This document shows positions 4,206-29,529 of a DNA stretch of 44,441 nt, one piece after another. This stretch comes from a virus: the IMG/VR virus record IMGVR_UViG_3300028550_004391, positions 1 to 44,441 of that record. One strand, written 5' to 3'. The position numbers and the translations under genes were made by a program. The notes beneath the pieces were generated by a model. It did not search any database. It was not told where the DNA came from and saw nothing but the letters and a program-made list of their open reading frames with translations. The stretch's first letter is position 1. Every line of letters begins with the position of its first letter.

Positions 4206-4652
4206 ATGAGTCACTGGAAGTACAAAGGCAAACCTCTGTCTGAAGTTCCCCAAGGATTTTTCGGTTTTGTTTATATAATTACCAATAGTAAAAATGGTAA
4301 AAAGTATATTGGCCGGAAGTACTTCGGAACCACAAGAAGAGTTAAAGTAAAGGGCAAGACCCGAAGAAAAATAGTTAGAAAGGAATCTGACTGGAGGACT
4401 TATGTAGGATCCTCTAAATCCCTTACAAAAGCAATCGAAGAGTTCGGATATGATAATTTTAGGTTTGAAATTTTATTCTTAGGCGAAACCAAAGGCCAAG
4501 TAAACTACATGGAAGAAAACGTCCAACACAAAGCCAATGTTATGATTCGGGATGATTATTATAATGATTGTGTAGGTTCTAGGAAGTTCGTCTCCGTTAA
4601 ATTCACAGACAGATCTAAAGCACTAATTTTTGAAACAAACCTCCCGAAATAA
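4206..4652 (+). CDS. GIY-YIG family nuclease-like protein
   Basis: The 148-residue product begins with a short W-K-Y-K-G segment. It then shows the GIY-YIG pattern: FVYIIT at residues 21-26 and KKYIGRKY at 32-39, followed by YVGSS, an AIEEFGYDNFRFEIL helix-strand, a Glu-rich helix (MEENVQ) and a conserved-looking YYNDCVG. Family members cut DNA one strand at a time and occur as homing endonucleases or repair nucleases. There is no DNA-binding tail of the I-TevI kind, so this is a compact stand-alone form. No clear ribosome site precedes the ATG. It opens the DNA-metabolism island ahead of the primase. Family assignment is fairly safe; the substrate is unknown. Confidence 0.75.
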   Translation: MSHWKYKGKPLSEVPQGFFGFVYIITNSKNGKKYIGRKYFGTTRRVKVKGKTRRKIVRKESDWRTYVGSSKSLTKAIEEFGYDNFRFEILFLGETKGQVNYMEENVQHKANVMIRDDYYNDCVGSRKFVSVKFTDRSKALIFETNLPK

Positions 4653-15479: not shown

Positions 15480-15489
15480 GATATTTATA
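15480..15489 (+). promoter_or_regulatory. Late-promoter-like motif GATATTTATA
   Basis: Exact GATATTTATA 17 bases before the ATG of the double kinase, followed by AAGGAG. Shared with the virion genes, so the kinase is likely expressed late. Confidence 0.6.
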
Positions 15490-15506: not shown

Positions 15507-17402
15507 ATGAAATCAATTAAAGAGGGCGTATATGACCCAAACATATTAAAAGCCATATTTCTAGCAGGTGGTCCTGGATCTGGTAAATCTTATTCAGCTG
15601 AAAACATTTTTGGTGTAGCAGACATAATGAAGTCCACATCAGGTCTAGGTTTAAAGCAAGTGAATTCAGATCCTGCATTTGAAATGTACCTAAAGAAATC
15701 TGGTGTCAATCCCAAAAACTTGGCTAAGATGACAGACAAGGTTTTTAAGTACTACACTGACAATCCTAATGCTGCTCGTCAAAAGGGCCGCCGGATGAAA
15801 GCAAAACTCCAGGCCCTATATGAAGATGGAAAATTAGGTATGGTGTTAGATGGCACAGGAGCTAATTATAGTAAGATCGCCAAACGTAAAGCTAGACTAG
15901 AATCCCAAGGTTATGATTGTTCTATGGTTTTTGTGAACACATCATTGGAGAAAGCCCAGAAACGAAACCTTCAGAGGGACCGGGTGCTACCAGCAGACTT
16001 GCTTGAAAAGAATTGGAAAGATGTCCAAAACAATATGGGCAAGTTCCAATCTCTATTCGGATCTGGCTTTATTATTGTTGATAATACAGAGGATGGTAAT
16101 TTTAGTAAGATGCATGCAGATAAAATTAAAGCTGCTACAAGATTAGTAAAGAGTCCATTGAAAAACCCAATTGGTAGGAAATGGATACAAGATCAGCTAA
16201 AACTAAAATCCCTTGGTGAATCAAAAATCACAAAAGAGCCATTATCTTTAGGAGAGTCTATAGCTTATGCTACACTATTAGAAACAATATCCCAAAAAGA
16301 GTTGGATGCATTTATAATTGAAAGCAATTCAACCAATCTAACAGGTGGCGATGTCGACGACGGACCTACAGCATATTATAATAGCTTAGCTCATTTCAAA
16401 TCTGCATCGAATAAAATGGCTGATCGACTTGGAATGAAAGTTATAGACTACATAATGGACGACGGAGACTTTACGAAATTCAAAGACCCATATTCATCGA
16501 CATCGCCTTCATATTTCCCAGCAGGTCTTCCCGGACAAAACACCCCTTCAAATCCCAAAGACTATAAGGCATCAAAAGCATACGCTTTATGGAAGAAACA
16601 CATAAAGAAAATAGCAGGTAAACTTGGAATTGAATTCCTATCTTTTAAAGATGAGATACCTAGTAAATCTCCCGGAGGTGAAAAAATAGAAGAACCAGAC
16701 ATAGACGATTTCAAATATCTTAAAGAAGGGATTAATGATAAGTACATATTTAAAGCTATATTTTTAGCCGGTGGTCCTGGTTCTGGCAAATCAACTGTAA
16801 TTAATAAGTTATTCAACGACCCATCAGCCAAACAAATAAAAAGTCTGACATCAACAGGCCTTAAGGTTGTTAATCTAGACCAATCACTTGAGTACCTAAA
16901 AAATAAACATAATATCCCTGCAAATTCTGATGATATGACAGATGATGAGAGAAGCCTTGATGGCAAGCTTATGGGTAAGTCTGTTAAGATTGCTAAGAAG
17001 CAATTAGAAAATTATCTAAGTGGTAAGCTCGGAATTATAATAGACGGCACCGGTGCATCCTCAAATGCATTATTCGGAAAAAAGAAAAGTATCGAAGCTT
17101 TGGGGTATGACACTTATATGGTTTATGTTAATACAACACTAGAGACTGCTTTGTCACGAAATGCAAATAGGCCTGAACGTAAATTACTAGATAAGGTAGT
17201 AGAGAGGGTTTGGCAAAAAGTTCATGACAACCTAGATGCATTTAAAAGTGGCTTTGGATCCAACTTCATAAAAGTAGAAGCAGATGGCAATATGATAGAG
17301 AATCTACCTCCAGGAACTAAAGCAGCAGTCATGAAGTTTTTAAAAAAACCCGTAAAAAATAAAGAAGCCCTTAAGTGGATTAAAAAAAGTAAAAGGTTAT
17401 AA
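15507..17402 (+). CDS. Tandem double P-loop kinase (zeta-toxin/polynucleotide-kinase-like), possible head cargo
   Basis: This 631-residue protein contains two homologous P-loop kinase domains. The first has KAIFLAGGPGSGKSYS (Walker A 21-28), later VLDGTGANYSKI and an Arg-rich lid AQKRNLQRDR. The second has KAIFLAGGPGSGKSTV (422-429), IIDGTGASSNAL and ALSRNANRPER. About 190 unrelated residues link them. The order of elements fits zeta-toxin/adenylate-kinase-like phosphotransferases; the substrate is unknown. Each domain is preceded by a similar lead, SIKEGVYD and YLKEGIND, and Ile/Leu-X-Glu before Gly resembles T4 gp21 protease sites. A GATATTTATA motif and AGGAG precede the start. Late expression next to terminase suggests a virion or packaged role (inference). 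Confidence 0.8.
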   Translation: MKSIKEGVYDPNILKAIFLAGGPGSGKSYSAENIFGVADIMKSTSGLGLKQVNSDPAFEMYLKKSGVNPKNLAKMTDKVFKYYTDNPNAARQKGRRMKAKLQALYEDGKLGMVLDGTGANYSKIAKRKARLESQGYDCSMVFVNTSLEKAQKRNLQRDRVLPADLLEKNWKDVQNNMGKFQSLFGSGFIIVDNTEDGNFSKMHADKIKAATRLVKSPLKNPIGRKWIQDQLKLKSLGESKITKEPLSLGESIAYATLLETISQKELDAFIIESNSTNLTGGDVDDGPTAYYNSLAHFKSASNKMADRLGMKVIDYIMDDGDFTKFKDPYSSTSPSYFPAGLPGQNTPSNPKDYKASKAYALWKKHIKKIAGKLGIEFLSFKDEIPSKSPGGEKIEEPDIDDFKYLKEGINDKYIFKAIFLAGGPGSGKSTVINKLFNDPSAKQIKSLTSTGLKVVNLDQSLEYLKNKHNIPANSDDMTDDERSLDGKLMGKSVKIAKKQLENYLSGKLGIIIDGTGASSNALFGKKKSIEALGYDTYMVYVNTTLETALSRNANRPERKLLDKVVERVWQKVHDNLDAFKSGFGSNFIKVEADGNMIENLPPGTKAAVMKFLKKPVKNKEALKWIKKSKRL

Positions 17403-17959
17403 TGGATAAAAAAGGAATACAAAGAATGAGGAACCTGGTTTCAGGGAACGCCTCAGATAAAACAAAAATTTCAACTGGTTATGGAAAAAGTAGGGTCGTT
17501 AGATCTGAAGGTGATGTGTGGGAAGTTAAAGGTAAAACCTGGACTATAAAAAATGGCATTCGTCAAACAGTATCTAAATTAGATTCTGCTAGAAAAGCTA
17601 TACGGATTCCTTCAGAATGTCCCAAATGCGGCGACCATAGAATGCAACACCATGCTTACAAAGCTATGTATAAAAAATTTGGTATGTGTTTGAACTGTGT
17701 TGTTAAATTAGAAAAAGGACTTAGAAAAGCTGGAAAGTATGAAAAGTTTGTAACGGAATTAGCAAAGTCTCATAATGAAGCATGGATAAAGGATAAGACT
17801 GAAGAGTATTATGATTGGCTAACCACTATGGATAATGAGTCTTACATTACCGAAGCAGGGGATATTGAAGATTGGTCGGGAGGAAAATCTAAAGAGGTTT
17901 TAAAAAAAGAATTTGACAATCAAGTTAAAAAAATAAAAAAGGATTTGGAATCCAAATAA
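17402..17959 (+). CDS. Conserved phage zinc-ribbon protein
   Basis: The 185-residue product has a Cys4 zinc-ribbon pair, Cys73-X2-Cys76 (SECPKCGDHRM) and Cys96-X2-Cys99 (GMCLNCVV), within a basic context. The N-terminal region (RMRNLVSGNASDKTKIS and DVWEVKGKTWTIKNGIRQTV) is a sequence type I recognise from many marine T4-like phages, with no assigned function. The C-terminal 40 residues are charged and helical. It overlaps the double kinase by one base (TAATG). It could bind nucleic acid or act in head assembly near the packaging genes; neither is shown. Confidence 0.75.
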   Translation: MDKKGIQRMRNLVSGNASDKTKISTGYGKSRVVRSEGDVWEVKGKTWTIKNGIRQTVSKLDSARKAIRIPSECPKCGDHRMQHHAYKAMYKKFGMCLNCVVKLEKGLRKAGKYEKFVTELAKSHNEAWIKDKTEEYYDWLTTMDNESYITEAGDIEDWSGGKSKEVLKKEFDNQVKKIKKDLESK

Positions 17960-18679: not shown

Positions 18680-20254
18680 ATGGCAAAGAAAACAATAAAA
18701 CAAATCATTGCGGACGAGTACAAGTTATGTGCTCAGGATCCAGTACACTTCATGCGGAAGTATTGCTATATCCAGCATCCAGTCAAAGGTAAGATCCTAT
18801 TTAATCTATTCCCATTCCAAGAGCGATCACTTACTGAATTTAAGGACTATGACTATAATATCATTCTAAAGTCCCGACAATTAGGAATATCAACCCTAAC
18901 AGCTGGGTATGCTCTTTGGGCTATGACATTTAATGAAGACTTTAACACGCTAGTTATTGCTACAAAACAAGAAGTTGCTAAAAACTTGGTTACAAAGGTC
19001 CGGGTAATGCATCACTACCTTCCTTCATGGTTAAAAAATGCTGCTGAGGAAGATAATAAGCTTTCATTAAGATTTGAAAATGGATCCCAAATCAAAGCGG
19101 TATCTGCTGCTGGCGATGCTGGTAGATCGGAAGCACTATCTTTATTGGTAATGGACGAAGCCGCCTTCATTGATAAAATCGATGATATCTGGGCATCATC
19201 CCAACAAACCCTAGCAACAGGTGGTAAGGCTATTATATTGTCAACTCCTAATGGCACTGGTAATTTTTTCCATAAGACATGGGTAAAAGCAGAAGAGCCA
19301 AATAACAAATTTAACACCATAAGACTTCACTGGTCAGTACATCCAGAAAGACATCAAGCATGGAGAGATGAACAGGATGATCTTCTAGGTGCTAAGCATG
19401 CTGCTCAAGAATGCGACTGTGACTTTATAACCTCTGGTAATTCTGTAATAGCTGGAGAATTGCTAGAGTGGTATAAGGACAATATGATTTTGCCACCTAT
19501 TGAAACCCGTGGCATAGCTGGTGAATTCCAAATATGGGAAAGGCCGGACTACACCAGAAGCTATATAGTAGTTGCAGACGTTGCCCGTGGAGATGGAAGT
19601 GACTTTTCAACTTTCCATGTAATGGACGTAGAATCGGTAACCCAAGTTGCAGAATATAAAGCCCAGATCGGAACAAAAGAATTTGGAAACATGTTAGTTA
19701 ATGTTGCCACGGAATATAATGAAGCCTTGTTGATAGTTGAGAATGATAATGTAGGGTGGGCAGCACTACAACCATCGATCGACAGAGGCTATAAAAATTT
19801 ATACTACACTTATAAACACGAGGGAGTGGTTGATGCAGCAACCCAATTGTCTAAGGGCTACGATCTAAAAGATCGATCTCAAATGACTCCTGGCTTTTCA
19901 ACAACATCTAGAACTAGACCACTCCTAATATCGAAACTTGATATTTATTTTAGAGAAAAAGCTTGTACAGTAAGGTCTTCTAGATTAATAGAAGAGCTAT
20001 TCGTTTTTATTTGGAATGGTTCAAGACCAGAAGCTCAACGTGGATATAATGATGATCTTGTAATGGCATTTGCCATCGGGCTATTCGTTAGAGATTCTGC
20101 ATTAAAGCTTAGAAATGAAGGTCTTGAATTGAATAAAAGTGCTATGGATCATATAGGTAGAACTGGATTCTACAGTAATGCCACAGGTCCTGGTGTTGAT
20201 GCTTGGAAACAAAATATCGCCGGACAAGATGAAGATCTTAAATGGCTACTATAA
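18680..20254 (+). CDS. 17: Terminase large subunit, gp17-like
   Basis: This 524-residue DNA-packaging motor has an N-terminal ATPase with the Walker A region KSRQLGISTLTAG (65-72) and Walker B LLVMDEAAF (Asp159, Glu160). The coupling motif STPNGTGNFF follows. The C-terminal RNase-H-like nuclease shows VADVARGDGSDFS (Asp300), LIVENDNVGW (Glu354) and YNDDLVMAF (Asp458, Asp459). It translocates and cuts concatemeric DNA at the portal. The Walker A has Ile where T4 gp17 has its catalytic Lys; an Arg in SRQ may substitute, as proposed for some terminases. It is shorter than T4 gp17 (610). The portal gene follows directly. Confidence 0.95.
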   Translation: MAKKTIKQIIADEYKLCAQDPVHFMRKYCYIQHPVKGKILFNLFPFQERSLTEFKDYDYNIILKSRQLGISTLTAGYALWAMTFNEDFNTLVIATKQEVAKNLVTKVRVMHHYLPSWLKNAAEEDNKLSLRFENGSQIKAVSAAGDAGRSEALSLLVMDEAAFIDKIDDIWASSQQTLATGGKAIILSTPNGTGNFFHKTWVKAEEPNNKFNTIRLHWSVHPERHQAWRDEQDDLLGAKHAAQECDCDFITSGNSVIAGELLEWYKDNMILPPIETRGIAGEFQIWERPDYTRSYIVVADVARGDGSDFSTFHVMDVESVTQVAEYKAQIGTKEFGNMLVNVATEYNEALLIVENDNVGWAALQPSIDRGYKNLYYTYKHEGVVDAATQLSKGYDLKDRSQMTPGFSTTSRTRPLLISKLDIYFREKACTVRSSRLIEELFVFIWNGSRPEAQRGYNDDLVMAFAIGLFVRDSALKLRNEGLELNKSAMDHIGRTGFYSNATGPGVDAWKQNIAGQDEDLKWLL

Positions 20255-23385: not shown

Positions 23386-23528
23386 TGCCAACACAAAAAA
23401 CCAAAAGCAAAGTCATTACTGAAAATTTAACACCCGATGACATTTCAATAATAAGAGCTGTAATCAGAAAAGAAGTTGCAAAAATCTTTTTTGATCTATA
23501 TCGCAAAAAGTCAACTTGGAGTAAATAA
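23385..23528 (+). CDS. Small conserved-type head-region protein, 47 residues
   Basis: This short frame translates as a 47-residue protein starting MPTQKTKSKVITENLTPDDI and ending FFDLYRKKSTWSK. AAGGAG lies 7 bases before the ATG. It overlaps its neighbours by one base at each end (TAATG twice), so it fills the gap before the protease exactly. This tight fit, with strong ribosome site and helical sequence, argues for a real gene. Small basic proteins at this location in T4 (gp67, gp68) are prohead core components; equivalence is not shown. Confidence 0.75.
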   Translation: MPTQKTKSKVITENLTPDDISIIRAVIRKEVAKIFFDLYRKKSTWSK

Positions 23529-24160
23529 TGACTAAACAATTACTAGTTGATTATAACATATTTAAGATTTCCCCACAAATGATTAATGAGTCTGAAGCCA
23601 AAAACGGCGGTAGGGTAATTGTAAAGGGGATCCTTCAACGAGCAGGTGCTGAAAATCAAAATGGCAGGGTATACCCCCGACCAATACTAGAACGAGAAGC
23701 TAGAAAGTACGATGAACAATTCATAACTCAAAATAGAGCACTTGGTGAATTAGATCATCCAGACTCCTCAGTAGTAAACTTGGCCAATGTATCCCACAAC
23801 ATCAGAAAAATCTGGTGGAAAAATAACGATCTAATGGGTGAAGTTGAAGTACTTGGTACACCTTCCGGAAACATTCTAAAAGAACTTCTAAAAGCTGGCA
23901 TCTTATTGGGCATTAGCTCAAGAGGTCTAGGTTCGGTAAAAGAATCAGCTGGTGGCGTGGAAGTTCAAGATGACTTTGAATTGGTCTGCTGGGACTTTGT
24001 AAGTAACCCATCTACTCATGGTGCATTTATGACACCTGCAGTCAATGAATCTATAAATAATAAACTAATAGCCCTAAATAAATATGATAGGGTCAACACT
24101 ATAATAAATGAAGTGCTATGTGACCTCACGTGCCAGTGTTCACTTCCAACCAAGAGATAA
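23528..24160 (+). CDS. 21: Prohead core protease, gp21-like
   Basis: The 210-residue protein belongs to the T4 gp21 serine protease family. It has GRVYPRPILEREA, then RALGELDHPDSSVVNL holding the catalytic His, GILLGISSRGLGSV holding the catalytic Ser, and FELVCWDFVSNPSTHGAFM. The protease matures the prohead by cutting scaffold, capsid and internal proteins after Glu in Leu/Ile-X-Glu contexts. Length matches T4 gp21 (212). The start overlaps the 47-residue gene by one base. Several nearby products carry candidate sites near their N-termini. Confidence 0.92.
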   Translation: MTKQLLVDYNIFKISPQMINESEAKNGGRVIVKGILQRAGAENQNGRVYPRPILEREARKYDEQFITQNRALGELDHPDSSVVNLANVSHNIRKIWWKNNDLMGEVEVLGTPSGNILKELLKAGILLGISSRGLGSVKESAGGVEVQDDFELVCWDFVSNPSTHGAFMTPAVNESINNKLIALNKYDRVNTIINEVLCDLTCQCSLPTKR

Positions 24161-24163
24161 CCC

Positions 24164-24898
24164 ATGAATCTAAAAGATCTTCTATATGAAAACAATAAGG
24201 ATCGCCTAGCAAGGCACTTAACAAAAGAAGCAAAACAAGATATTATTAAATCTGTTTCTGCATTTAACGAGTTTGGATCTAAAATCTATAGAACCGAAGA
24301 AATTAAAGAAATGGTTGAATCCATAATCAAAATGTCTGAAGGAGCTACTCAATTGGCACTTCAAGAAACTGACGATTGGTTTGATTCTGTAACTGTTAAA
24401 CGTGATATGAATGAAGTAGCATCTTCGGTCAAGTTGTTTGAAAAGACAGCAAGAGAGCTATCATCACTTCAGCAACGACTAGAGTCTGTGTATGAGGATA
24501 TGGGCCACAAGCTAGGCAAATACTACGAGATCTCAGAAGGTAATGCATTTGGAGCTGAAAGAGCTAAAGCGATTGCTGGTGATGATGACGAGTTCACTGT
24601 AGATGGAAAGAAATTCCCAGTAAAAAGTGTAGATAAAGAGGACGAAGAAAATGCAGAAGAATTTACAGAGTCAACCAAACTAGGATCTATTCTTAAAGAA
24701 GGTAGTAGCACATGGAAGGTTAAGTTTGCAAAGGCAAATGTCAATGGCGTTGCTTATGGTGGTGTGTCAAAGGTAATTGCTAGAACTCCAGCAGAAGCAA
24801 TTAAAAAAGCTGTAAAGATTGTTCAAGCAAAAGCAGGCTTTAAAGGTAGTAGTAATGATTGGATGGCTGTTGACGTAGATTCAGTGAGCAAGGCATAA
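24164..24898 (+). CDS. Head-region precursor protein with candidate gp21 sites
   Basis: This 244-residue protein begins MNLKDLLYENNKDRL, where L-Y-E before Asn fits a gp21-type site. A helical region follows (SSLQQRLESVYEDMGHKL), then an acidic linker (KSVDKEDEENAEEFTES). A second site-like LGSILKEGSS precedes a compact C-terminal domain of about 70 residues (TWKVKFAKANVNGVAYGG, ARTPAEAIKKAVKIVQAKAG). This looks like a scaffold-like pro-region attached to a mature domain. It lies 3 bases after the protease gene and ends in TAATG overlap with the next. Head-internal role inferred. Confidence 0.7.
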   Translation: MNLKDLLYENNKDRLARHLTKEAKQDIIKSVSAFNEFGSKIYRTEEIKEMVESIIKMSEGATQLALQETDDWFDSVTVKRDMNEVASSVKLFEKTARELSSLQQRLESVYEDMGHKLGKYYEISEGNAFGAERAKAIAGDDDEFTVDGKKFPVKSVDKEDEENAEEFTESTKLGSILKEGSSTWKVKFAKANVNGVAYGGVSKVIARTPAEAIKKAVKIVQAKAGFKGSSNDWMAVDVDSVSKA

Positions 24899-25158: not shown

Positions 25159-25304
25159 GTAAAGAAAAAACATTTAGCGTACAAGAATGGAAACGAAAGC
25201 TAGTAGAATTGGAAGCCCAATTCGAAAGTGACGATCCTGTCTATGTGACAACAAACAAAGATAAGACCAAAAAGAAATCAAAATATTTCGGAGAAAGATC
25301 ATGA
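25155..25304 (+). CDS. Small charged protein, 49 residues
   Basis: This frame encodes a 49-residue protein starting MSKEKTFSVQEWKRKLVELE and ending KKKSKYFGERS. AGAGG is 4-8 bases before the ATG. ATGA overlaps join it to both neighbours, so it is exactly fitted into the operon. The N-terminal half is an amphipathic helix and the C-terminal half is lysine-rich. No function can be assigned; it is probably part of the head-assembly small-protein cluster. Confidence 0.65.
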   Translation: MSKEKTFSVQEWKRKLVELEAQFESDDPVYVTTNKDKTKKKSKYFGERS

Positions 25305-25588
25305 TAAAATTAAAAGGTATATTAAAAGAAAATTCTGTATTAGGAATTTTACCATCATCTAAACTGATGAAAATGAAGTGGAATCCTCTAACAGAAGCAG
25401 AGCCAATGAACGAAGAGTACATTGAAACTATTGATGGCGATGGAGACATTGGCGCAGCGCTGGAACTTATTGAAGAAGCTTGGCTTACTTGGGGTAGAGG
25501 TCCAATGACTGAACCACAACATGTAAAACCAGCCAAAAAAGAATTGATCAACTATGTTGTCAAGCACCTTAATAAGGTTCTAAAATAA
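25301..25588 (+). CDS. Small head-region protein with LKE leader
   Basis: This 95-residue protein begins MIKLKGILKENSVLGILPSS. The basic, hydrophobic lead ending in L-K-E before Asn is like the cleaved leaders of T4 internal head proteins. The remainder is acidic in the middle (EAEPMNEEYIETIDGDGD) and basic at the end (KPAKKELINYVVKHLNKVLK). GGAGA precedes the ATG, which overlaps the previous stop by ATGA. It ends in TAATG with the cysteine-rich microprotein. Packaged or scaffold role is inference. Confidence 0.65.
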   Translation: MIKLKGILKENSVLGILPSSKLMKMKWNPLTEAEPMNEEYIETIDGDGDIGAALELIEEAWLTWGRGPMTEPQHVKPAKKELINYVVKHLNKVLK

Positions 25589-25773: not shown

Positions 25774-26097
25774 ATGGAAGATTATAAAAAGCGTAAGCGC
25801 TATAAAAGAAACGACTTCACACTAGATAAAAGTGGAACCGGAGTAAGGGTACCAGACAATTCTTCAGCAGCACTTGAAGGTGCATTAAGAAGTTTTAAAA
25901 AAAACCTTAAAGAAGCTGGTAAGATCGACGAATATAAAGATCGCAGAACATATACCAAACCAACAACTGCAAAACGAAGAGCTAGAATAGAAGCTTGCCG
26001 CAATGAACAGTTCAGATGGAAAGCCCAGAAAAAACTAGAAGATGGTTATATTTGGACAGCCCTTATAGACACCAATCAGGGTGGCACAGCAATGTAG
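25774..26097 (+). CDS. rpsU: Phage-encoded ribosomal protein bS21 homologue
   Basis: The 107-residue product carries a bS21 core at about residues 24-85: VRVPDNSSAALEGALRSFKK, NLKEAGKIDEYKDRRTYTKP and TTAKRRARIEACRNEQ. This parallels the ALRRFKR...AG...YEKPTTERKRAKA signature of bacterial bS21. A basic 20-residue N-terminal extension and a C-terminal tail make it longer than the usual 65-71. bS21 sits on the 30S platform next to the anti-Shine-Dalgarno sequence of 16S rRNA. Phage copies are known, and replacement of host bS21 in the ribosome is the likely role. It lies between two terminators, and its ATG has no clear ribosome site. Function on host ribosomes is inferred. Confidence 0.8.
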   Translation: MEDYKKRKRYKRNDFTLDKSGTGVRVPDNSSAALEGALRSFKKNLKEAGKIDEYKDRRTYTKPTTAKRRARIEACRNEQFRWKAQKKLEDGYIWTALIDTNQGGTAM

Positions 26098-26309: not shown

Positions 26310-27233
26310 ATGTCAAAAGACCTATTAAAAGAAGCTATAGCTGATGCTAAGGCAGTCCGTCAGACTGCAATTGCAAATGCAAAATTAGCTTTAGAAGAAG
26401 CGTTTACGCCCAAACTCCAGTCTATGTTATCTACTAAGATCCGTGAAGAGTATGAAGACGAAGAAGATGAAGAAGAAGTTGACGTTGCCGAAATGGCAAT
26501 GGATTCTGAAGAAGAAACTGACCCCGTTGCAGACCTTGTCGCAGACGAAGAAGAAACAGAGGTTGAGGGTATGTATGGCGAAGACGCAGAAATGGCACCA
26601 GAAGATGAGCTTGAAGAAGACGAAGCTGAAGGTGGACCATCTGAAGATGACCTCGAGTTAGAAGCTATCCTTCGTGAACTAGAAGCCGGAACTGATACAG
26701 AAGAGGATGAAGATCCTATGGCTGAAGACGCCGCTGCTGTATACACTGGCGCTGAAGAAGAAGAGCCTGTAACAGAAGATGCAACAGAGGACGATGAAGA
26801 ATTCGACCTCGAAGAAGTTATTAATGCCCTAAGAGAAGAAGACGAAGAAGAAGCTCCTGTTGAAGAAGATGCTACTGAAGACGATCTAGAAGAAGCTTAT
26901 GCAACTATTAAGTTCCTAAGATCTAAGATCAACGAAGTAAATCTACTTAACGCTAAGCTACTATTCTCTAACAAACTCTTTAGAGCTAATAACTTGAATG
27001 AATCACAAAAACTACGTGTAATTGAAACGTTCGATAGAGCAGCATCAGTACGTGAAGTTAAGTTGGTATATTCAACACTTGCTGAATCAATGGTAGGAAA
27101 ATCAGGAACTAAAACTTCAATGACTGAAGGCTTAGCTTCAAAATCTACAAAATCTACTGCACCAAATAAATCGGTGATTGTAGAATCAAACAACTTTTCA
27201 GACCGCATGCGTAAGCTTGCCGGTTTAATTTAA
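26310..27233 (+). CDS. 22: Prohead core scaffold protein, gp22-like
   Basis: This 307-residue protein has the plan of T4-like scaffolds. A helical N-terminus (MSKDLLKEAIADAKAVRQTA) is followed by about 150 very acidic residues in runs of Glu and Asp (residues 47-205). A helical C-terminal third has DLEEAYATIKFLRSKINEVN, and the end SDRMRKLAGLI resembles other gp22 C-termini. Scaffold fills the prohead and is then degraded by the gp21 protease; several LKE, LEE and IRE contexts are present. AAGGAG before the ATG and direct placement ahead of the capsid gene support the call. Confidence 0.88.
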   Translation: MSKDLLKEAIADAKAVRQTAIANAKLALEEAFTPKLQSMLSTKIREEYEDEEDEEEVDVAEMAMDSEEETDPVADLVADEEETEVEGMYGEDAEMAPEDELEEDEAEGGPSEDDLELEAILRELEAGTDTEEDEDPMAEDAAAVYTGAEEEEPVTEDATEDDEEFDLEEVINALREEDEEEAPVEEDATEDDLEEAYATIKFLRSKINEVNLLNAKLLFSNKLFRANNLNESQKLRVIETFDRAASVREVKLVYSTLAESMVGKSGTKTSMTEGLASKSTKSTAPNKSVIVESNNFSDRMRKLAGLI

Positions 27234-27254: not shown

Positions 27255-28754
27255 ATGTCAAATATTTCAAACTTGCTGCAAGATTCAAAAGCAGCTTTTG
27301 CGGATCAACGCAATGAAACACAAGGCTACGTTACTAAATGGGAAAAGACTGGACTTTTAGAAGGACTTAGTGGTGAATATGATAAACATAACACTGCTAT
27401 TCTTTTGGAAAACCAAGCTAAACAACTCATCTCTGAGGCAAACAATACTGCAACAGCTAATGATGAGTGGAATGGCGTAGCTTTACCACTAGTAAGACGT
27501 ATCTTTGCAGAAATCTCAGCAAAAGATTTCGTATCAGTACAACCAATGAACTTACCATCAGGTCTAGTTTTCTGGTTGGACTTTAAATATGGTAACACAG
27601 CTGGTGGCCATAAAGCCGGAGAATCTGTCTACGGTGCTGGTTCAAAGAATGCAGTAACTGATTTCACAAAAGGTCTATATGATGGCCCTGGACGTGAAGG
27701 CTTTAGTTTAAAAGCTACAAAACTTAGCGATGGTTCAGGATCTACACATGTCTTTACTGGTGTCGATGGCGAAGAAGCTGACCCAGGAATGCTAATGTCT
27801 GCATACGCTATCACAGGTGGTAATGTAGTACAAGTAGCTTCTGTTGATGGTCTAACAGTAACATGGGATTCTGTTTTAGGACTAGGTGGTGAAGGCGATT
27901 CTGATGTTTATTACTACAAAGAAAACCTCGCCGCAGCAGCACGTGGTGACTTTGAGGCACAGCATACTTTTGGAACAGCCAATGAAGAAGCTAACTTAGA
28001 GATTCCAGAACTAGAGGTTGCTCTAGAATCGGAGGCTTTAGTTGCTAAGACACGTAAGTTAAAAGTTGTATGGACTCCAGAGTTTGCACAAGATTTAAAT
28101 GCGTATCACTCAATTGATGCTGAAGCAGAATTAACTTCAATGTTATCTGAGTACATCGCAATGGAAATCGATTTAGAGATCCTACAGATGCTACACGCTT
28201 CTGCTGGCCATACAGGTACATGGTTCGCTAACCCTCCAGCTGATGCATATGCAGAAACTAACACATATTCTTCAGGTTCAACTTGGGCTTATCAGTTAGG
28301 TACTCACAATGCTACTATTGGATTTGAAATCCAAAAGATATCTAATAAGATCCACAGATCAACAATGCGCGGTGGTGCAAACTTTATCGTTTGTTCACCA
28401 GATATTGCTACTATTCTTGAGACTATCCCTAGTTTCGCAGTAGACACTGATGGAAATCAAGATGGATTCGCAGCTGGCGTTGAAAAGATTGGAAACTTTG
28501 CAAACCGTTATAAGGTTTACAAGAATCCATATTGGAACTCAGACGATCTAATTATCGGGTTTAGAGGAAATCAATTCCTTGAAACTGGTGCAGTTTATGC
28601 TCCGTATATCCCGCTAATCATGACTCCGTTGGTTTATGATCCAAACAACTTTACTCCACGTAAAGGTGTAATGACACGTTATGCTAAAAAGGTAGTTCGT
28701 AAGGACTTCTATGGTAAGCTAACAGTTGCTAACAAAGCAGGATTAGGTTTATAA
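27255..28754 (+). CDS. 23: Major capsid protein, gp23-like
   Basis: The 499-residue HK97-fold capsid protein of T4 type includes GVALPLVRRIFAEISAKDFV, SVQPMNLPSGLVFWLDFKYG, then ELEVALESEALVAKTRKLKV and VWTPEFAQDLNAYHSIDAEA. These are characteristic gp23 segments. The prohead-cleaved leader probably ends at QLISE (Glu61) before Ala-Asn, close to the T4 cut after residue 65. Length is near T4 gp23 (521). AGGAG with ideal spacing and a strong terminator downstream fit very high expression. No separate vertex protein (gp24) is seen in the window. Confidence 0.95.
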   Translation: MSNISNLLQDSKAAFADQRNETQGYVTKWEKTGLLEGLSGEYDKHNTAILLENQAKQLISEANNTATANDEWNGVALPLVRRIFAEISAKDFVSVQPMNLPSGLVFWLDFKYGNTAGGHKAGESVYGAGSKNAVTDFTKGLYDGPGREGFSLKATKLSDGSGSTHVFTGVDGEEADPGMLMSAYAITGGNVVQVASVDGLTVTWDSVLGLGGEGDSDVYYYKENLAAAARGDFEAQHTFGTANEEANLEIPELEVALESEALVAKTRKLKVVWTPEFAQDLNAYHSIDAEAELTSMLSEYIAMEIDLEILQMLHASAGHTGTWFANPPADAYAETNTYSSGSTWAYQLGTHNATIGFEIQKISNKIHRSTMRGGANFIVCSPDIATILETIPSFAVDTDGNQDGFAAGVEKIGNFANRYKVYKNPYWNSDDLIIGFRGNQFLETGAVYAPYIPLIMTPLVYDPNNFTPRKGVMTRYAKKVVRKDFYGKLTVANKAGLGL

Positions 28755-28815: not shown

Positions 28816-28821
28816 GTGCTA

Positions 28822-28831
28822 GATATTTATA
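28822..28831 (+). promoter_or_regulatory. Late-promoter-like motif GATATTTATA
   Basis: Exact motif directly after the capsid terminator and 20 bases before the ATG at 28852 of phoH. Its position between terminator and ribosome site is good evidence for promoter function. Confidence 0.65.
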
Positions 28832-28851
28832 GTAAAGAAGAGGAGATCTCA

Positions 28852-29529
28852 ATGTCTACAAGTTTTTCAAATAAACCCAAAAATAATAAAAAAGGGTATA
28901 GGTTTTTATTATCCCTAAACCCAGAGCAAAAAAAAGCTAAGTCTATAATTCTAGAAAATGATGTGTCAATCATAATGGGTAATGCAGGATCTGGAAAAAC
29001 CCTATTAGCATGTCAAATAGCATTAAACTTAACCCTAGATAAAAATGTCGAAAAAATAATTATTACAAGGCCCACAATATCTAAAGAGGACCTAGGATAT
29101 TTACCAGGAGGCATTGACGATAAAATGGATCCATGGGTAGCACCTGTATATGGTAACATGTATCAACTACTTAGACGTGAACGTATAGACTCTATGATAA
29201 GCGATAGACAGATCGAAATAGTTCCTGTATCATATATGAGAGGACGTACCTTTACCAATTCGGTGATAATTGTAGACGAGGCCCAAAACTTGACCCACGA
29301 CCAAACCCTAATGATACTTCAAAGAATCGGTAAAGGTTCCAAAATGATGTTCTGCGGAGATTCAGACCAAATAGATTTAAAATCTACAGGAGAGTCTGGT
29401 TTAAAGTTTTTACAATCAATAACAACGGTTAATGGCTTACACACTATTGAGCTATTGGAAAATCACAGGCATCCAATACTAAAACAGATCTTAAATGCAT
29501 ACGAAGAGATGCCAGGTAAAGTTTTATAG
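28852..29529 (+). CDS. phoH: PhoH-like ATPase
   Basis: The 225-residue protein has a P-loop IIMGNAGSGKT (Gly43-Thr50), the PhoH segment IIITRPTISKEDLGYLPGG, Walker B VIIVDEAQN and the sensor FCGDSDQIDLKSTGESGL. These place it in the PhoH/RNA-helicase-like family common in marine phages. Its role in infection is unsettled; phosphate response and RNA metabolism are both suggested in the literature. A longer frame opens at 28816, but that codon precedes the promoter-like motif, and AGAGGAG stands 7 bases before the ATG at 28852, so the shorter start is preferred. It begins the unit behind the capsid terminator. Confidence 0.92.
   Translation: MSTSFSNKPKNNKKGYRFLLSLNPEQKKAKSIILENDVSIIMGNAGSGKTLLACQIALNLTLDKNVEKIIITRPTISKEDLGYLPGGIDDKMDPWVAPVYGNMYQLLRRERIDSMISDRQIEIVPVSYMRGRTFTNSVIIVDEAQNLTHDQTLMILQRIGKGSKMMFCGDSDQIDLKSTGESGLKFLQSITTVNGLHTIELLENHRHPILKQILNAYEEMPGKVL

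Follow-up and report, generated by a model that had tools for sequence, protein, structure and literature searches.

The stretch of DNA analysed (the window, 44,441 nucleotides) belongs to a T4-like virus of bacteria, and its ORF at 15507-17402 was found to encode a protein of 631 amino acids in which two kinase domains are separated by a linker domain. This ORF, the elements identified within it and the neighbouring features are listed below, with a slash denoting a predicted cut or a border in short motifs.

15482-15489, + strand: TATTTATA box, 17 nt before the ATG of the two-kinase gene (motif scan)
15507-17402, + strand: two-kinase protein, kinase-linker-kinase, 631 aa (ORF, domain matches, alignment of one half with the other)
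15507-15524, + strand: N-terminal leader, residues 1-6, predicted cut after E6 (KSIKE/GVYD; motif and leader statistics)
15525-16211, + strand: kinase domain 1, residues 7-235, Walker A at 15567-15590 (Pfam, alignment, AlphaFold pLDDT)
16212-16322, + strand: segment of residues 236-272 with four [LI]xE sites, after E238, E250, E259 and E272 (motif; low pLDDT)
16323-16706, + strand: linker domain, residues 273-400, common to nucleotidyltransferase-ligase-like proteins (domain searches)
16707-16727, + strand: segment of residues 401-407 before kinase 2, predicted cut after E407 (KYLKE/GIND; motif)
16728-17399, + strand: kinase domain 2, residues 408-631, Walker A at 16770-16793 (Pfam, alignment, fold match)
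17402-17959, + strand: Cys-containing protein of 185 aa, homologue of the gene after the cassette in locus L010
23528-24160, + strand: gp21-type head maturation (prohead) protease, the presumed cutter (phrog_207, E 1.9e-53)
24164-24898, + strand: unrelated protein with a like leader, MNLKDLLYE/N (leader list at a looser threshold)
25301-25588, + strand: unrelated protein with a like leader, MIKLKGILKE/N (same list)
26310-27233, + strand: acidic scaffold-like protein with many [LI]xE sites (position and sequence)

The motif GGPGSGKS was found at residues 21-28 and 422-429 of the two-kinase protein, and DGTG at residues 115-118 and 513-516. Comparison of residues 1-235 with residues 401-631 (BLASTP) gave 40% identity over 239 columns (E = 2e-44), far beyond chance. 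The base-type Asp was identified as D55 in kinase 1 and D458 in kinase 2, and the lid arginines were located in RNLQRDR (153-159) and RNANRPERK (551-559) respectively; in P-loop kinases, residues of these kinds are the catalytic ones. Among seven aligned domains, the base-type Asp and lid residues R153, N154, R157 and R159 were invariant, while in DGTG the first G can vary, Pelagibacter phage HTVC008M carrying DSTG. The ORF thus almost certainly encodes two kinase domains with motifs intact in both. This bears out an earlier note on this DNA in its claim of two homologous kinases, whose catalytic residues prove intact in homologues also; the joining segment that it described is present (residues 236-407, approximately), but is closer to 170 residues in length than to the 190 proposed.

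Searches of the ORF against Pfam identified AAA_33 (3.8e-19) and Zeta_toxin (1.7e-17), each matching in two stretches, with Zeta_toxin scoring 63.9 bits against a curated cut-off of 22.3. Matches among PHROGs were phrog_12810, an ATPase family and a polynucleotide kinase family, while a sequence-profile search of the PDB returned zeta (1gvn) first at 1.2e-6 and T4 Pnk (1ly1) at 3e-5. An AlphaFold model of the protein, built from 13 sequences, had a mean pLDDT of 64; values were mostly 80-93 in kinase 1 and 65-87 in kinase 2, and fell below 50 at residues 1-8, 236-354 and most of 357-410, where six of eight [LI]xE sites lie. The fold search with the full model (VIA-align) returned kinase 2 only, with the kinase of Clostridium thermocellum Pnkp as its best match (Z 17.0, rmsd 2.7, 166 residues aligned), followed by phosphoseryl-tRNA kinase (Pstk, 16.1), zeta (14.1) and T4 Pnk (14.0). 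The fold is therefore established separately for kinase 2, and that of kinase 1 is assigned from the 40% identity and its pLDDT. Together, these sequence and fold matches place the domains in the PNK/zeta group, in agreement with the affinity originally proposed. As to substrate, a nucleotide sugar, an RNA end or a protein had been suggested; nothing found here favours phosphorylation of protein or UDP-sugar over that of nucleic-acid ends, nor does anything argue against it, and the chance that the kinases act on such ends may be put at slightly under even.

At least 570 relatives of the kinase were detected by profile scan, of which 80 were kept. The scan pattern contains E-G, so that its loci are biased toward the border motif described below, and two further locus sets were gathered independently of that motif. 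Among the ORFs of 172 loci and the window, domain searching identified 112 that encode a kinase alone, 96 with nucleotidyltransferase-linker-ligase-like order, nine that hold all four domains, six of the kinase-linker-kinase form and one linker-kinase, along with a few partial forms; as the loci were fetched with these queries, and some overlap on one contig, the numbers indicate what exists and not frequencies. Single and double forms of the kinase, the distribution of which the earlier note had proposed to examine, thus both occur. The double form was found at five IMG/VR loci (L005-L009, 78-87% identical), with those of L008 and L009 running off the contig end and the first kinase of L009 truncated. 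An apparent second kinase in L019 was a weak false split (E 0.006) and not a double. Twenty-five loci came from bacterial or archaeal assemblies, nearly all of them MAG or bin contigs, as phage sequence would be.

The linker was identified as a separate domain common to the double kinase and the nucleotidyltransferase-ligase-like proteins, and gave no match when searched alone against annotated phages. The ligase-like domain of the partner protein carries EKTDG or EKLDG (KxDG test, on relatives and not the window). Its assignment as a ligase falls under every cut-off: Pfam RNA_ligase reached E 0.011, under cut-off, in one of four partner proteins, and T4 Rnl1 was at rank 14 (E 0.19) for a low-confidence model. 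No fold is claimed for the linker or ligase-like parts, because pLDDT is low in large stretches of their models. In the records of L005, a close relative of the window (97 kb), and L028 (64 kb), either of which may be incomplete, only the linker matched the nucleotidyltransferase-ligase-like protein. Other arrangements were seen in Kyanoviridae-like loci such as L070, in which a single chain holds a cytidyltransferase-type nucleotidyltransferase (phrog_3041) with the kinase after it, and in HTVC008M, where a nucleotidyltransferase of the phrog_3041-type family adjoins the kinase gene. DUF6267 (phrog_455), which has a KWDG motif, was observed near nucleotidyltransferase and kinase genes in Kyanoviridae (L002:6242-7474, L070:3564-4799, L203:27296-28270). 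It may be a diverged ligase-like partner; homology with the KTDG domain was unsupported (hhalign probability 0.2%), and DUF6267 is kept as a lead.

The two-kinase gene appears to have arisen from neighbouring genes. L028 has a single kinase gene and, after it in another frame, a linker-kinase gene (N-terminus MKLSEWLADNILE) that carries its own leader. The second kinases of the doubles (that of L009 included) and the L028 linker-kinase formed one clade with a support of 0.997, at a tree distance of about 1.9 from the first kinases. The tree rules out recent tandem duplication, the kinases being separate and deeply diverged lineages, and to call the kinase duplicated, as had been done, is misleading: two lineages appear to have been joined by gene fusion. 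Given the two-gene form of L028 and the clade of second kinases, the window gene looks like a fusion of two neighbours, and SLGESIAYATLLE in the window stands at the expected place of the second gene's leader. The gene that follows the two-kinase gene was found to be homologous (25% identity, E 3e-14) to that after the cassette of L010, where a kinase and a nucleotidyltransferase-linker-ligase-like protein occupy the matching place; the double kinase therefore sits in the seat of a larger cassette.

The T4 prohead protease gp21 cleaves after L/I-X-E (PMC9026906). In the double kinase, [LI]xE with a next residue other than P was found after residues 6, 106, 167, 238, 250, 259, 272 and 407. Six of these eight sites fall within 67 border residues of the 631 (binomial 3e-5, for borders picked post hoc). 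Sites E238, E259 and E272 were conserved in the window protein and in each of the other five double-kinase proteins, while the site at 106 was missing from relatives. A lone site proves nothing, since that after E167 (DLLE/K) is conserved yet sits in kinase 1 within a predicted helix. Ahead of kinase 2, the border varied in length and sequence (YLKE/G, PLTE/G, PLKE/G) with the motif kept, and P3 of the N-terminal site was I, V, I and I in the four doubles with complete N-termini, the V being that of L005.

Across 91 distinct kinase borders (from 133 rows, after removal of 39 duplicates and three without a Walker anchor), P1 was E in all 91 and P1' was G in 90, with L (59), I (18), V (12), M (1) and F (1) at P3. 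In the first of the sets gathered independently of the motif it was present in 23/23, and in the second (25 loci, less two without a recognisable core) E-G/A stood at the border in 21/23, with L or I at P3 in 20 of those 21; failures of the strict rule in this set were L197 (E then S) and L202. An E-G pair this invariant, where the kinase starts, could belong to the fold itself. The partner protein was found to have [LI]xE ahead of the nucleotidyltransferase in 61/67 distinct sequences (background windows 36/1000), ahead of the linker in 29/29 (7/348) and directly ahead of the ligase-like domain in 74/77 (42/2054). Like those for the kinase borders, these counts measure conservation and not independent events, as the sequences are related. 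Background was taken from windows of equal size in the folded ligase-like domains of the same sequences (2-4% with the motif), and 17, 66 and 0 sequences respectively had no usable anchor. Three ligase-like borders lacked the E. The segment before the ligase-like domain resembles the partner protein's own N-terminal leader, as for MSLGNWLADQIISE and ESLGQWLANQILLVE in L110.

A profile of the kinase leader, built from its final seven positions in 33 kinases and scanned without the start Met, was found to recur at N-termini in 14 of 430 families (26 proteins) without similarity to cassette proteins. At the same threshold, shuffled N-termini gave a mean of 1.7 families, with no more than 6 in any of 300 runs, while the value for inner stretches was 1.15 (maximum 4). 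The general enrichment of [LI]xE at N-termini was modest (17.6% against 9.5-13.2% in inner windows, 466 protein families), and only the kinase-leader profile test is clear. In their letters, the kinase-type leaders presumably resemble those of T4 internal proteins. In L016 (4978-5977), three consecutive small unrelated genes with a kinase-type leader (looser threshold) precede the kinase gene; by their leaders, these would be candidates for further head-packaged proteins.

The window protease at 23528-24160 is surrounded by portal, scaffold-like and capsid genes, and a homologue was found in 9/11 records tested. The scaffold-like gene directly precedes the major capsid gene (27255-28754), and its product had no match among PHROGs. 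A gene for a bS21-like ribosomal protein (25774-26097; phrog_21469, E 2.4e-8) was also observed in the head gene region. The two-kinase gene lies within a long same-strand run of mostly virion genes; the terminase (18680-20254), beside which it had been placed, is near but not adjacent, lying three small genes downstream. The late-type motif reported upstream is present; TATTTATA corresponds to the T4 late box in reverse complement, but is the form which these phages put before genes. On the coding strand of the window, TATTTATA occurs 16 times (at 1564, 8751, 11751, 15482, 18664, 29555, 30619, 35942, 37501, 40230, 42389, 43241, 44382 and three other positions) against three for TATAAATA, and 13 of the 16 are intergenic, though gaps between listed genes amount to only 2309 of 44441 bases. 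At the loci of the first of the two sets gathered independently of the border motif, it was found within 60 nt upstream of 175/743 genes, and TATAAATA of 12. TATTTATA may be this lineage's own late-promoter box. As it falls inside the listed start of the PhoH-like gene (28816-29529), that gene probably begins after the listed GTG.

Our reading, to which we assign a probability of about 50%, is that the gene product is a head-targeted polyprotein of leader, kinase 1, linker domain and kinase 2, which the protease would cut to yield two injected kinases, most likely acting on nucleic-acid ends. The leader and the matching segments at inner borders would carry the polyprotein into the prohead core, where the gp21-type protease would cleave after [LI]-x-E and free two polynucleotide-kinase-like enzymes and the linker domain. 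Targeting to the head and cutting by the prohead protease are, on sequence grounds, probable. The freed kinases may then remain in the head with the DNA and be injected along with it, a step that we hold likely with slightly less assurance; action at the next infection, which had been suggested, finds support here. The injected enzymes would most likely add phosphate to nucleic acid at its 5'-OH ends, the target probably being RNA that a host defence has cut. Relatives would couple 5'-end phosphorylation to the nucleotidyltransferase and ligase-like domain. A repair role in the window phage is weakly founded, as the L005 and L028 records match the linker only and the ligase assignment is under every cut-off. 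This reading goes beyond the earlier note in its punctuation of the prohead-protease type, the shared linker domain and the wider cassette.

The protein could instead be an ordinary late enzyme with two kinases that remains uncut in the infected cell, [LI]xE-G being a structural cap and the border motifs helical linkers. This would account for the near-invariance of E and G at the kinase start even in distant family members, and is consistent with the long same-strand run of mostly virion genes. However, a like motif begins three other unrelated domains as well as unrelated proteins, the flanking sequence varies in length while the motif is constant, and a protease family with the matching rule is encoded, so that we regard an uncut enzyme as unlikely.

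A zeta-toxin-like kinase of cell-wall precursors (UNAG), injected or made late and weakening the wall, agrees with the Zeta_toxin match and with zeta 1gvn as best PDB sequence match, and wall weakening has been proposed for the zeta-like kinases of polyvalent proteins and MuF fusions (PMC5512222). It is nevertheless improbable, as the fold search, which covered kinase 2, ranks the Pnkp kinase ahead of zeta (Z 17.0 against 14.1), the domains joined in relatives are a nucleotidyltransferase and a ligase-like domain and not wall enzymes, and no antitoxin-like neighbour was recognised by Pfam among the scanned neighbours. A nucleoside or cofactor kinase working with a HIGH nucleotidyltransferase, as in NadR (NAD salvage), is equally hard to sustain: relatives have the kinase fused or adjacent to a nucleotidyltransferase of PPAT/NMNAT fold, and an 'NAD synthetase' PHROG matches window 4206-4652 (a protein that also matches four homing-endonuclease families), but no such nucleotidyltransferase was recognised among the scanned window proteins, protein search detected none in the L005 and L028 records, and the ligase-like domain and the two kinases would be left unexplained.

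Extending the head-targeted polyprotein to relatives, we tentatively propose that many T4-like phages carry a pre-made, head-packaged repair kit (5'-kinase, nucleotidyltransferase, ligase-like) as polyproteins with a targeting segment and cut site for each domain, the capsid protease both maturing the shell and freeing the enzymes, and that the window line took on a second kinase in place of the ligase-like part and the nucleotidyltransferase; this is rather less likely than its being otherwise. If true, widespread T4-like phages would deliver repair-type enzymes at infection, before any phage gene is read, and these could act faster than host defences in which tRNA or other RNA is cleaved. 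The principle of T4 Alt and the internal proteins would be extended to multi-enzyme polyproteins, and [LI]xE at domain borders together with a gp21-type protease would provide a sequence rule for injected proteins, applicable to phage genes of unknown function.

Capsid targeting sequences bring proteins into T4 heads (PMC9026906). The window protein shares with the capsid-targeted, gp21-processed and injected T4 Alt and IPI-IPIII a short N-terminal L/I-x-E leader, a gp21-type protease and a head-gene context; unlike these, it is a polyprotein with several sites and two kinase domains, and its packaging is predicted. Polyvalent proteins, as described by Iyer et al. 2017 (PMC5512222), are likewise multi-effector chains with zeta-like kinases and a proposed delivery with DNA, but there an embedded peptidase is proposed to free the domains, whereas here this is assigned to the prohead protease; no embedded peptidase was found among the Pfam and PHROG matches of the ORF. 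Bacterial Pnkp and T4 Pnk, which are 5'-OH polynucleotide kinases, have the same kinase fold, base-type Asp and lid arginines, while the window chain is without a fused phosphatase or ligase and its 5'-OH activity is putative. Zeta toxin and PezT share the Pfam family match and fold, but the window protein is viral and tandem, and no epsilon/PezA-type antitoxin was matched by Pfam among the scanned neighbours of its gene. In open-licence literature, no description was found of a polyprotein that combines kinase, nucleotidyltransferase and ligase and is processed by a prohead protease.

Homologous single kinases with the same E-G border were identified in HTVC008M (gp129) and Agrobacterium phage Atu_ph07 (gp053), the flanking regions of the latter differing from those of the window protein. 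Atu_ph07 gp053 (L003:7254-9590) was observed to have border motifs ending in E (VTE/G, LTE/LFDTE, LNE/LFDTS) and to lie beside a run of genes of similar size. By RefSeq numbering, it falls inside CDS 31-76, a cluster with 29 virion proteins and one of three virion-protein clusters, as reported by Attai et al. 2018 (PMC6102473). Purified S-SM1 virions contain 'a putative citidylyltransferase (T4-GC190)', as reported by Sullivan et al. 2010 (PMC3037559). T4-GC190 in S-SM1 corresponds to SSM1_190, which was found to match phrog_395, phrog_455 and phrog_3041 and to carry the leader MKKFSAFLNE/A; its family is that of the nucleotidyltransferase which forms one chain with the kinase in L070 and adjoins it in HTVC008M.
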